Assembly: GCF_039655865.1 (NCBI RefSeq)
Contig: NZ_JBBYXL010000004.1
Span: forward strand, 310,001-374,000
Direction: 5' to 3'
From: Prosthecobacter sp. SYSU 5D2
Lineage (GTDB): Bacteria > Verrucomicrobiota > Verrucomicrobiia > Verrucomicrobiales > Verrucomicrobiaceae
Length of the DNA stretch: 64,000 bases
The position numbers and the translations under genes are program-made. The notes under the pieces were generated by a model that saw only the letters and a program-made list of their open reading frames with translations, did not search any database and was not told the origin of the DNA. Shown piece by piece: positions 42,200-46,447 of this stretch (positions within the stretch are counted from its first letter, which is position 1; each line of letters starts with the position of its first letter).

Positions 42200-42278
42200 C
42201 CCGGACACGGGCCCCAAAGTTAGGCTGCCTGTTTTAGCAGGTAAGGAGTTTGTAAAGGAGCATCACGACTATTGATTC

Positions 42279-42284
42279 TATAAT
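42279..42284 (+). promoter_or_regulatory. Perfect -10 hexamer TATAAT upstream of the PelA-like gene
   Basis: TATAAT lies 54 bp before the ATG at 42339. A convincing -35 at 17-bp spacing is not present. If used, transcription would start near 42291, immediately before the strong hairpin at 42295-42337. Confidence 0.45.
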
Positions 42285-42294
42285 CTGAGACGCT

Positions 42295-42337
42295 AAAATG
42301 GGCTTATTATCATCTTTGATAGTAAGCGGCTCATTTT
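42295..42337 (+). promoter_or_regulatory. 5' leader hairpin ending directly at the start codon of the PelA-like gene
   Basis: CTTATTATCA (42303-42312) pairs with TGATAGTAAG (42317-42326) around a 4-nt loop: ten pairs, one of them G-U. An outer AAAATG (42295-42300) pairs with CATTTT (42332-42337). The ATG follows at 42339. The outer stem is followed by a short T-run, so it could be an attenuator, or it could sequester the translation start. Confidence 0.6.
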
Positions 42338-42338
42338 T

Positions 42339-44996
42339 ATGGCTTCTCTTCGTTCCATCTTCTTCTTGATCGCAGTCCTTTTGATAGGGGCTACCGCTGG
42401 TCTGGCAGTCAATCCGGTAAGGCTGATGGTGGATCTCTCCCCGGAGCCAGACGGTGTGATGCTAAGCGCCTTTGATCTTTGCATCGTGGATGCGCAGGCA
42501 AAGGTAAACCTGGAGGCGCAGCAGGCGCTGGGAAACAAGATGCTGGCGCGGGTGAATGTCTTCGAGGTACCGCAGGACTCTCCTGCCGCAGAAGCCGCAC
42601 GGTCTGTCGGTGTGCCGCTGCTGGAGGCGACCCGGAAAGGCTGTGTGCGGCTGGATGCCACGCATCCGCATTGGGTAGCGGTCGTGGTTTACCAGCTGGT
42701 GCAAGGGGCCGCTGAGCGCGGTTTTGACGGATTTGTCCTCACCGGCCTGGAGACGCTGAGCCAGGATGCAGAAAGAGCGGCCTGTTTGAGGGTGATCGCT
42801 GAGGTGGACAAGGCCTACCCGGACAAGCAACTCATGATTGAAGGCGGGCTGGACCTGGTTCCGGAGGCACGCCGCTGGCTGGAAGGCGCGCTGTTTTTGG
42901 GTGATGCTGCACGTTCCCCCGCCCGTGACCGGCAGATCCGCGAGGTCAAAAGGCTGGGGGTGCGGCCGCTGGTGGTGGACTCTCTGGCAGCGGACGTGAG
43001 CCAGGAGGAAATTGAAAGCCGGGCGCAGCATTACCGGGCCATGGGGGCGGTACCGTTTTTTACCACGCCGACCATGGACGGGACGCACCTGGGACCGCTG
43101 CGGGAAGTGACCCGGCGTGTGCTGGTGATCCACTCCGGTCCGGCACGGGAGACCTTCACGGCGAAGCTGCTGCACGGGAGCCTGGAGTGGATGGGCTACC
43201 AGGTGCGGTATGTGGATGCAGGAGTCTCGGCCAGACCGGACTGGGAGAGTGAGCTTTCCCGCATCAACGGAGTGATTTTAGATGCACGTCTGGCTCCGCT
43301 GCCGGAGCAGCAGGCGGCTTTGCTCGGGCTGGTGGACCACTTGAAAGCTCATGAAGTGCCGCTGCTGATCACCGGGGCCATGTGGGGGAATGCGGAAGAA
43401 TTTGCAGAGTGGGCAAAAAGGCTCGGCCTGCGCGGGAGCGGGAAATCTCTGGCAGTAGGGACCGACTGCCGGGTGAACTGCATCGAAAACGCTTGGCTTC
43501 AGGAAGACGGGGCCGTGCGCGCGCGGAGCCGGGGATTTCGGGATTTGCAGGCACCGGCAGGGGCGAGAGTGGTGAGTTCATTTGAATCCGGGGAGGGAAA
43601 GAAGGCGGTACGGTTTGACCCGGTGTTTCTAGCGTCCTGGGGCGGTTTCTGGCTGGATGAGGCGGCCATGGAGCTTGGGCCGCAACTGCAGCCGCTGCCG
43701 TTTATTGAAAATTGGTTAGGCCAGCAGTCATTGCTGCCGGTAGCGGACGTGGCCAGCCAGAACGGGCGACGTCTGATGGTGCCGCACATCAGCAGCGAGG
43801 GTTTCGCTGCCGGCACCAGCCTGCAAGGCCTGCCCATCGCTGCGGAGGTGATGACGGAGAGGATTCTGTCCCGCTATTCCCTGCCCTTCACCGTGGCGGT
43901 GTGTGAAGGCGATGTGCGCGGGATCAATCCCGGACATGAGGCGCGGGACGCGCTGCGGTATGAGACGGCGGCGCGCGCGTTGTTTGCCCTGCCCCAGGTC
44001 AGGGCAGCCTCCGCCAGCCTCAGCCGCCCTCAGGACTGGAGCAGATGTGAGACGATGCCGCGTGAGGTGGCGGGGTCCATGGCCTACATTCACCGGCAGC
44101 TCCTGCCCGCAGGTCGGCGGGTGGAGCTGATGCTCTGGCCCCATGGTTCACCGCCAACCGCAGAGGGAGTGGCCTTCAGCAAAAGGATGGGCGTGGACAA
44201 TGTGCAGCCCCAGCTCCTCGACAACGCCACGGGACGCCTGCCACCGCCTGCGGCCATGACATGGGGCAGAAAGGATTCTTTCCAGTCGCTGGCACCTGGC
44301 CTGCGGCGCAAAGGGCCTCTGGATGCGACTTCGTTCATCAGTCTGGCGGAGGCTCAGGGACGGGGCCGGTGGATGGCACCGGTGCATGTGGGACTGAATT
44401 TTCACGATGCCACCAGTGAGGAATCGCTGTGGGAGGTGGAGCGGGTGCTGGACTGGTGCGCCAGCCAGCCGCTGCAAGCCATGAGCCTGACGGACCACGC
44501 CAAAATGGTCCGCGACGCTGCGGAAACACGGTTTTTCATCCAGGGACCCGGACACTGGATCATCGTCAATGCAGGGCACGCACGCACTTTGAGGGTTCCG
44601 GTGAGCGCCGGTGTGCCTGACCTGGACCGGAGCATCGGCATCGCCGGGTATGTGCAGCGGGGCGGAGACCTGTATATCCATACCCTGGGCCGGCGGCGCA
44701 CGGAACTGGTGCTGAGCCCGAAAGGCAGCCCCGGACATCTGCGGCTGGCCAGCAGCAGCGGGGCCGTGCGTTACATGGAGGCAGGGCATCAAATGGCCCT
44801 GCTGCAAGTGGCTGATCTGCGGCCGGTAGAACTGGTTTTTGCAGGCATCCAGCCAGGAGCGATGTGCCAGATTTATACCAGTGAGCAGCCGCAGTTCATC
44901 CTCGCGGATGCCAAGGGACAGGTGGAGGTGACCGTGCCCGCCCAGACCCTGATGCGCCTGCAAGTGCTGCCGGCCCAGCAGGCGGCCATGAGATAA
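42339..44996 (+). CDS. PelA-like exopolysaccharide-modifying protein with degenerate deacetylase site
   Basis: 885 residues with signal peptide MASLRSIFFLIAVLLIGATAG. Three regions parallel PelA. Residues ~28-255 form a GH114/GH166-like barrel (ERGFDGFVLTGLETL where PelA has GFDGFFLDTLD). Residues ~258-370 form a Rossmann-like domain (VLVIHSGPARETF). Residues ~478-760 follow the PelA deacetylase: HISSEGFAAGT, YSLPFTVAVCEGDV, ALPQVRAASASLSRPQDW, then SLWEVERVLDWCASQPLQAMSLTDHAKMV. The PelA metal ligands, Asp in DGDG and two His in SHxxSHP, are replaced by SSEG and ASASLSRP. The TPR gene follows by 29 bp. The PelA similarity is from memory of the family. Confidence 0.75.
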   Translation: MASLRSIFFLIAVLLIGATAGLAVNPVRLMVDLSPEPDGVMLSAFDLCIVDAQAKVNLEAQQALGNKMLARVNVFEVPQDSPAAEAARSVGVPLLEATRKGCVRLDATHPHWVAVVVYQLVQGAAERGFDGFVLTGLETLSQDAERAACLRVIAEVDKAYPDKQLMIEGGLDLVPEARRWLEGALFLGDAARSPARDRQIREVKRLGVRPLVVDSLAADVSQEEIESRAQHYRAMGAVPFFTTPTMDGTHLGPLREVTRRVLVIHSGPARETFTAKLLHGSLEWMGYQVRYVDAGVSARPDWESELSRINGVILDARLAPLPEQQAALLGLVDHLKAHEVPLLITGAMWGNAEEFAEWAKRLGLRGSGKSLAVGTDCRVNCIENAWLQEDGAVRARSRGFRDLQAPAGARVVSSFESGEGKKAVRFDPVFLASWGGFWLDEAAMELGPQLQPLPFIENWLGQQSLLPVADVASQNGRRLMVPHISSEGFAAGTSLQGLPIAAEVMTERILSRYSLPFTVAVCEGDVRGINPGHEARDALRYETAARALFALPQVRAASASLSRPQDWSRCETMPREVAGSMAYIHRQLLPAGRRVELMLWPHGSPPTAEGVAFSKRMGVDNVQPQLLDNATGRLPPPAAMTWGRKDSFQSLAPGLRRKGPLDATSFISLAEAQGRGRWMAPVHVGLNFHDATSEESLWEVERVLDWCASQPLQAMSLTDHAKMVRDAAETRFFIQGPGHWIIVNAGHARTLRVPVSAGVPDLDRSIGIAGYVQRGGDLYIHTLGRRRTELVLSPKGSPGHLRLASSSGAVRYMEAGHQMALLQVADLRPVELVFAGIQPGAMCQIYTSEQPQFILADAKGQVEVTVPAQTLMRLQVLPAQQAAMR

Positions 44997-45025: not shown

Positions 45026-46447
45026 ATGAAATTCCGCTCGCGCACTGCTGTTTTGCTGATTCTTCTCTACGGTATTCTGGCCCTGGCATGGAACCATCGC
45101 CTGGCACAGAAAGAGGACGATGGGCAGGCAGGCAGGCGCCTGGAAAGGCAGGAGCACATTGCGCTGTATCTGGCCAAGACTCCTGAAGGCAACGTGACGC
45201 CGGCGCTGATGGGGCTGGTCTCCCTGCCGGATGAGCAGTTGCAGGCGCTTTCCGAATGGGTGGACCTTCCGCCGTTGACCCAGATCCGGCAGCTGACGGT
45301 GCAAGAAGGCCGGGTGGCGGCACTGGGACCTGAATGGGGCGAATTTTTGTTGGATACCTGGTTAGCCCATGACCGGCCTGCGGATCTCATTGAAGTCCAC
45401 CTGATGATCGCCGCCGCAGGTGACCGGCTCAGCGATGAGGCGCGACGGGCCGCGCTGGAGTATCTGGCGCACGTGGCCATGCGGAGAGGGGATACGGCAG
45501 ATGCGGTGACCATCCTCGGGAGGGCGAATGAACTTCCCGGTGCCACCTGGGAGACCCTGCAACAGCTCGCTACCGCCTGCCGCAGCGCGCAGAACACCGC
45601 CCCAGCGCTGCGTGCCATCACCCTCTGGTTGAACCGGCACGAGAGCCAGTCGGGTCATCCCGCATTGGAAGAGGCACGGGATCTGGAGCTGGCACTGATG
45701 ATGGAAGCCGGCCGCACGCCGGAAGCGCTGTCTTTGCAACTGAGCCAGCTCACCGGCTACGCACCCTACCCGGAGCGCACGCTGGACCGTGCCTGCCTGG
45801 CCGCCCGCAAGGCCCACCAGGGTTCCAGCATGCTGCCGGTCTTGGAGCGCCACCTGGAGACTTTCCCTGAGCATGCGCTGTCCTTGGAAAAACTGAGCCA
45901 CCAGGTGCCCGTGAATGCAGACTACCTGCGCTGGCTCACCTGGCATGCGGCCATCAGTGATGATGAGCAGCCTGGACCAGCGGCCTTTGCCTCCTACCGG
46001 CGGCTGGCGGCGGCGCGCGTCTCCCAGGCCCTGCCCAGGCTGTGTGCGCTGGCCAGCAATGAGGCCATGAAGAAGGAATTGCAGGAAGCACTTTCCCAGG
46101 GTCTGGACCGCGCGGAAATGCAGCTCACCGCCCTGCAACTGGCCCAGCATGATCCTGTGGCCCAAAAGGTGCTTTCTGACCGGCTGCGGGCGGAACCAAA
46201 GAATCGTGACCTGCACTTCGCCGCGACGCTGGCGGCGGCAGCAGCGCAGCACAGCGGGTCCACCGGCATTTTGTGGCAGGAGTTTTTACGCCGGTTTCCC
46301 GGTGACCAGGCGGCCCGGCGGCGGCTGGTGCAGGCCTACATCCACGAGCAGCAGCCCGGCATGGCGCTGCGCACCTATGCGGAGTTCCCAGCCGGAGAGC
46401 TGACGGCGGAAGACCGCCAGCACCGGGAGCTTTTGAAGCAGCTTTAA
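45026..46447 (+). CDS. Membrane-anchored TPR protein, PelB-like by position
   Basis: A 473-residue protein with an N-terminal transmembrane anchor (TAVLLILLYGILALAW). Helical repeats follow throughout: LIEVHLMIAAAGDRLSDEARRAALEYLAHVAMRRGDTADAVTILGRA (a typical TPR pair, summarised), ALSLQLSQLTGYAPYPERTLDRACLAARKAH, and the C-terminal QAARRRLVQAYIHEQQPGMALRTYAEF. PelB combines an N-terminal TM and TPRs with a C-terminal outer-membrane barrel; here the barrel is absent. The pelA-then-pelB order matches the Pseudomonas operon. No PelC-PelG genes are nearby. The PelB assignment is inference; the TPR and anchor call is solid. Confidence 0.7.
   Translation: MKFRSRTAVLLILLYGILALAWNHRLAQKEDDGQAGRRLERQEHIALYLAKTPEGNVTPALMGLVSLPDEQLQALSEWVDLPPLTQIRQLTVQEGRVAALGPEWGEFLLDTWLAHDRPADLIEVHLMIAAAGDRLSDEARRAALEYLAHVAMRRGDTADAVTILGRANELPGATWETLQQLATACRSAQNTAPALRAITLWLNRHESQSGHPALEEARDLELALMMEAGRTPEALSLQLSQLTGYAPYPERTLDRACLAARKAHQGSSMLPVLERHLETFPEHALSLEKLSHQVPVNADYLRWLTWHAAISDDEQPGPAAFASYRRLAAARVSQALPRLCALASNEAMKKELQEALSQGLDRAEMQLTALQLAQHDPVAQKVLSDRLRAEPKNRDLHFAATLAAAAAQHSGSTGILWQEFLRRFPGDQAARRRLVQAYIHEQQPGMALRTYAEFPAGELTAEDRQHRELLKQL

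Follow-up and report, generated by a model that had tools for sequence, protein, structure and literature searches.

The closest described counterparts of the locus studied here are PelA, an enzyme that trims the biofilm sugar Pel, and PelB, both of the Pel biosynthesis system. PelA of Pseudomonas aeruginosa (PaPelA) and of Pseudomonas thermotolerans (PtPelA) combines a GH166 hydrolase with a CE21 deacetylase in a chain of four domains, represented by the structure 9CGY (P. thermotolerans) and, for the isolated GH166 domain, by 5TCB. The PelB protein of P. aeruginosa has an inner-membrane helix at its N-terminus, 19 TPRs and an outer-membrane barrel, and in the model proposed for this species the TPRs are contacted by the deacetylase and mixed domains of PelA, not by the hydrolase (PMC12022489). 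The same study places every PelA homologue with an examinable genome in a pel operon, reports conserved active sites and infers a common modification mechanism (PMC12022489). Fission of pelB has been reported in other bacteria (PMC7112194).

A PelA derivative with altered domain activity is also on record: PelA-DA of Bacillus cereus is described as a deacetylase-only form, an active de-N-acetylase encoded in a pel operon (PMC13254593). The protein described below is likewise an altered PelA derivative, but it has all of the domains, no active sites and no operon. In the literature that we searched, no PelA pseudo-enzyme is described.

The PelA-like gene and its catalytic residues

The window, i.e. 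the whole stretch of 64 000 nucleotides of Prosthecobacter sp. SYSU 5D2 that was analysed, carries an intact gene for a homologue of PelA (table 1). The initial annotation had described it as full length and PelA-like, and both points hold: the gene is a single ATG-to-stop frame, and a phmmer query with the single sequence matched 9CGY at E=1.6e-26. A profile built from 21 relatives matched 9CGY at E=9.4e-78 over profile positions 50-836, which is nearly full length, and also matched 5TCB at E=1.8e-17. The AlphaFold2 model (pLDDT 83.8, pTM 0.81) is strongly similar to 9CGY in Foldseek (E=2.2e-50; TM 0.69 for the query and 0.74 for the target), and the four-domain fold of 9CGY is present. The window protein thus has in common with the Pseudomonas proteins the order of the four domains, the fold and sequence similarity over the full length. 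The hydrophobic helix at its N-terminus is probably a signal peptide. Scans of the protein against Pfam and NCBIfam gave no match, and annotation pipelines therefore probably label it as hypothetical; in five of its relatives the domain scan returned a weak GH114 echo only.

Table 1. Features of the PelA-like gene, its upstream element and its partner gene, in window coordinates.
Feature	Position	Strand	Basis
Conserved promoter-like element	42241..42329	+	Cross-species conservation, genome-wide pattern searches
Element part GTAAGGAGTTTGTAA	42241-42255	+	Conserved upstream block
Element part TTGATT	42272-42277	+	Conserved upstream block
Element part TAAAAT	42294-42299	+	Conserved upstream block
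Element part, dyad	42302-42327	+	Conserved upstream block
PelA-like doubly inactive protein, 885 aa: N-terminal hydrophobic helix and four PelA domains	42339..44996	+	ORF, homology, AlphaFold2, Foldseek
GH166-type barrel domain, ~residues 24-255, catalytic residues lost	42408..43103	+	5TCB match (E=1.8e-17); residue losses
T135 codon, site of PaPelA D160	42741..42743	+	Residue mapping
L187 codon, site of PaPelA E218	42897..42899	+	Residue mapping
Mixed alpha/beta domain, ~residues 256-475	43104..43763	+	9CGY alignment
CE21-type deacetylase domain, ~residues 476-745, active site lost	43764..44573	+	Alignment, residue mapping
MT1 motif HISSEG (residues 483-488), replacing HIDGDG	43785..43802	+	PelA alignment
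MT2 motif SASLSRP (residues 558-564), replacing SHTFSHP	44010..44030	+	PelA alignment
N687 codon, site of PaPelA H761 (catalytic acid)	44397..44399	+	Residue mapping
Beta-rich C-terminal domain, ~residues 746-885	44574..44993	+	Model; more conserved in dead clade than in active homologues
Partner: all-helical TPR protein, 473 aa, N-terminal membrane helix (residues 3-27; probable), no beta barrel	45026..46447	+	Domain scan, AlphaFold2

The residues of PaPelA were mapped onto the window protein via 9CGY and 5TCB, using the numbering of PMC12022489; the aligned chains agree with the spacings D528-H600-H604-E723-H761 and D160-E218. Three altered motifs had been pointed out in the initial annotation, and each of them falls on catalytic positions. 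The DGDG motif reads SSEG at residues 485-488, where the base D528 is replaced by S485 and the metal ligand D530 by E487. In the SHxxSHP motif (SHTFSHP in PelA, SASLSRP at residues 558-564), the metal ligands H600 and H604 are replaced by A559 and R563. In the barrel, PelA reads GLFLDTLD and the window protein GFVLTGLE (residues 131-138), with T135 at the place of D160. The mapping adds two losses to these, the catalytic Glu of the GH166 pair (E218, now L187) and the catalytic acid of CE21 (H761, now N687). Of the eight catalytic residues compared, only H526 is kept, as H483, and the loop carrying E723 does not align with the window protein. The residues of an active CE21 deacetylase and those of an active GH166 hydrolase are both missing.

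The surroundings of the two sites are changed as well. In the hydrolase groove, most of the positions that are invariant in GH166-intact relatives are replaced, including residue positions 33, 71, 73, 101, 168 and 169 of the window protein (Y, Y, S, W, N, R); structural glycines and prolines and W112 are retained. Nearly all conserved motifs of the deacetylase cleft are gone. The initial annotation had suggested a protein that binds rather than modifies a glycan, and these replacements do not support it. Such a lectin-like protein would hold a polysaccharide in its dead clefts while a TPR partner guides or tethers it. The fold does feature deep clefts (PMC12022489), and a protein of polysaccharide-handling type has here retained its four domains, each of them under selection; however, with the groove and cleft residues largely replaced and no endogenous Pel-type synthase left, we regard this explanation as doubtful. 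A role as a protein scaffold fits at least as well as glycan binding.

Several positions have become invariant in the dead clade: the charged residues D32, E59, D162 and E176 in the barrel, and H585 and D690 in the deacetylase domain. They speak for a re-invented enzyme that would have gained a different activity through new catalytic residues, located either in the barrel or in the altered cleft of the deacetylase. Against this, no substitute metal triad is visible, because the His/acidic positions that have newly become invariant in the deacetylase domain are H585 and D690, and a search of the invariant alignment columns of this domain for a substitute Asp/His triad found none. The metal-ligand positions also drift freely between subclades (S/D/Q/N/L/G/E at 528 and E/T/A/K/D/S at 530). 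We consider a new enzymatic activity very unlikely.

Catalytic residues and Pel synthase genes across the family

The residue losses are shared by the genus (here Prosthecobacter/Brevifollis). None of the 35 genus sequences compared has a complete site of either kind, CE21 or GH166, and both residues of the GH166 pair (D160, E218) are gone in all 34 sequences covering these positions. With G050 and its relative L108, the set comprises 37 homologues from genomes that have no detected PelG or belong to the same clade (PelG was not searched for in L098, L100, L102, L103 and L108). A complete CE21 site occurs in 0/37: His is never found at 604 or at 761, Asp is found once at 530 and His twice at 600. 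G050 and L108 have lost the deacetylase and keep the hydrolase pair. In PelG-bearing genomes, D528, D530, H600, H604 and H761 are kept in 17/17 compared copies covering the deacetylase domain, a count that includes PtPelA as reference; the sole exception among copies from such genomes is G057b, which its genome carries in addition to intact paralogues.

In the careful tree, the genus sequences form one clade (97/95), which is united in one clade with G050 (100/100). G057b appeared as sister in a quick tree and has no settled position in the careful one. Named GTDB hits belong to Prosthecobacter, Brevifollis and other Verrucomicrobiaceae. In one congener, G041 (L077:6625-8677), the PelA-like gene is fragmented with no TPR partner alongside, an apparent loss in progress.

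The genomes were also searched for PelG (PF16933) and for DUF3492 (PF11997), which we take to be the PelF-type domain; at pel loci the DUF3492 gene adjoins PelG. Neither occurs in the window's genome (99.98% complete) or in any of the 47 congeners, several of which are at 99% completeness. As positive controls, both were found in sister genera within the family and in further families of the order, and the sister genera with pelFG keep CE21-intact copies of PelA. A class-wide sample of 286 genomes contains five PelA carriers outside the family. All five have PelG, and the orphan PelA is therefore peculiar to the window lineage within this sample; in those with readable motifs the deacetylase looks intact.

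Unlike the Pseudomonas species, the window's genome has no pelF/pelG, the gene pair by which a Pel biosynthesis system is recognized. By its sequence, the window protein is a member of the PelA family by descent that carries neither the CE21 nor the GH166 catalytic residues and is encoded outside a Pel system. The initial description of a disarmed pseudo-enzyme is supported, and the disarming is deeper than it had stated, reaching both catalytic domains and the whole genus, with no Pel synthase left. The window lineage goes against the published generalization that PelA homologues lie in pel operons and have conserved sites. Since this genus has neither, annotating 'PelA' hits by homology as Pel producers would be wrong there.

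The TPR partner and the upstream element

The partner gene starts 29 bp downstream of the PelA-like gene on the same strand. A TPR homologue directly follows the PelA-like gene in every complete locus of the genus, amid other flanks that differ between subgroups, and the partner is homologous to the TPR genes found beside CE21-intact PelA in sister genera. Its AlphaFold2 model (pLDDT 88.7) is all-helical and has no beta strand; there is therefore no barrel of the kind that PelB places in the outer membrane. As in PelB of P. aeruginosa, the N-terminal helix of the partner precedes a TPR-like helical array, and a PelA homologue accompanies it; unlike PelB, the partner lacks the barrel, and the solved PelB fragment is not among its sequence matches or its top-ranked fold matches. 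Because sequence and fold searches against the PDB reached generic TPR proteins only, we do not claim the partner as PelB. It is probably anchored in the inner membrane, and it resembles the TPR part of a PelB from which the porin barrel is missing.

In the pel-bearing sister genera, a frequent order is PelA, a TPR gene (~730 aa) and a larger TPR/outer-membrane-type gene, an arrangement that looks like a split PelB. This order, and the fact that PelA-PelB-type pairs serve polymer export, would suit a pair working for another synthase-dependent polysaccharide. In the genus, however, the pair has neither a synthase gene nor a porin gene as a conserved neighbour, and we find this explanation improbable.

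No third conserved gene was found beside the pair in clade A. In 9/9 loci of clade B, the TPR gene is closely followed by a small lipoprotein-like gene (~150-195 aa; L074:5176-5628, equivalents in L071-L080), which could be a third component of the module in that clade; the single copy scanned gave no match in Pfam. A sulfatase encoded upstream in the window was left out because it is not conserved beside the pair elsewhere.

The gene is preceded, at ~10-100 bp, by a non-coding element that is conserved amid unrelated flanks in much of the genus, between species whose proteins are 30-75% identical, and also in G050. The consensus comprises GTAAG-nnn-TTTGTAA, TTGATT/TTGCTT, a TAAAAT-type -10 and a TTCTCA...TGAAA dyad, the palindrome of which is variable among relatives. 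Three genome-wide pattern searches for further copies that might form a regulon found the element only at the PelA-like gene, and an Rfam scan returned no RNA family. The element would most simply be a promoter with private operator sites, and as it is unique in the genome, its regulator may be private to the gene pair.

Selection, possible function and origin

Between close and moderately close relatives, the dN/dS ratio is ~0.06-0.2 in each of the four domains, the dead ones included (silent sites are saturated in more distant pairs), and the reading frames are intact in nearly all species. Together with the conserved gene pairing and the conserved promoter-like element, these values argue against a decaying, functionless relic of a lost pel operon. 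The missing synthase genes, the lost catalytic residues and the broken copy without a TPR gene in the congener G041 are what such a relic could claim; we strongly disfavour it, and it is the explanation to which we give hardly any credence. Compared with active homologues, the barrel and the beta-rich domain are more conserved, whereas the deacetylase is not; as the two sets are of unequal depth, this domain-wise shift is only suggestive.

Strong selection throughout the genus, a constant partner and a promoter-like element of its own persist despite the loss of both sets of catalytic residues and of the Pel synthase genes, and so the PelA-like protein probably has a non-enzymatic function in the cell envelope. 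We favour, with somewhat more than even confidence, the reading that the doubly inactive PelA pseudo-enzyme and its barrel-less, PelB-like TPR partner form a putative non-catalytic scaffold or adaptor of the envelope, kept after the loss of Pel synthesis, whose client would be another protein or a different glycan. The PelB contacts modelled for P. aeruginosa, which involve the deacetylase and mixed domains and not the hydrolase, speak for this reading. Whether the PelA-PelB pair of Prosthecobacter/Brevifollis, stripped of both activities, the porin and the synthase, is a non-catalytic module of the envelope that stands on its own, is under private regulation and has no relation to Pel seems to us evenly balanced. 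The probabilities that we attach to the various readings overlap.

In one course of events that would fit, PelA was duplicated in the family and its functions divided among paralogues; hydrolase-only, deacetylase-only and half-dead copies coexist in pel-bearing genera. One TPR-linked copy would have lost its deacetylase; the genus would have lost pelFG, and the hydrolase would have died too (the order of these last steps is conjecture). The pair would have been kept for a role that depends on the folds and not on the chemistry. The ordered loss series, from a dead deacetylase with the hydrolase residues kept (G050) to both dead (the genus), lets one ask how a two-enzyme protein survives as a scaffold, and in this case what the PelA-PelB contact does structurally can be viewed apart from catalysis.

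Other forms of PelA occur in the family. One sister-genus genome, G057, has four PelA paralogues with split activities (L044, L045, L046, L047): the copy in the pel locus has an intact hydrolase and a dead deacetylase, and the copies elsewhere have an intact deacetylase with a degenerate or missing hydrolase domain. The pel-locus copy, G057b (L045:10772-13393), resembles the window protein in its destroyed CE21 site (D528S, MT2 deleted, H761D) and its adjoining TPR gene; it differs in its intact GH166, the presence of PelF and PelG, and the CE21 kept by other paralogues of the genome. Deacetylase-only PelA forms are present in sister genera. In G051, a hydrolase-only PelA of ~310 aa (L061:8177-9109) lies two genes from pelF/pelG and a separate deacetylase-type PelA is found elsewhere in the genome, i.e. 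PelA is split in that genus. Genes adjacent to pelF in Verrucomicrobiaceae (L045:7268-8605, L061:6918-8171, L062:7491-8810) encode a membrane protein at the place expected for PelD; the two that were scanned gave no NCBIfam PelD hit and contain a GAF-like domain.
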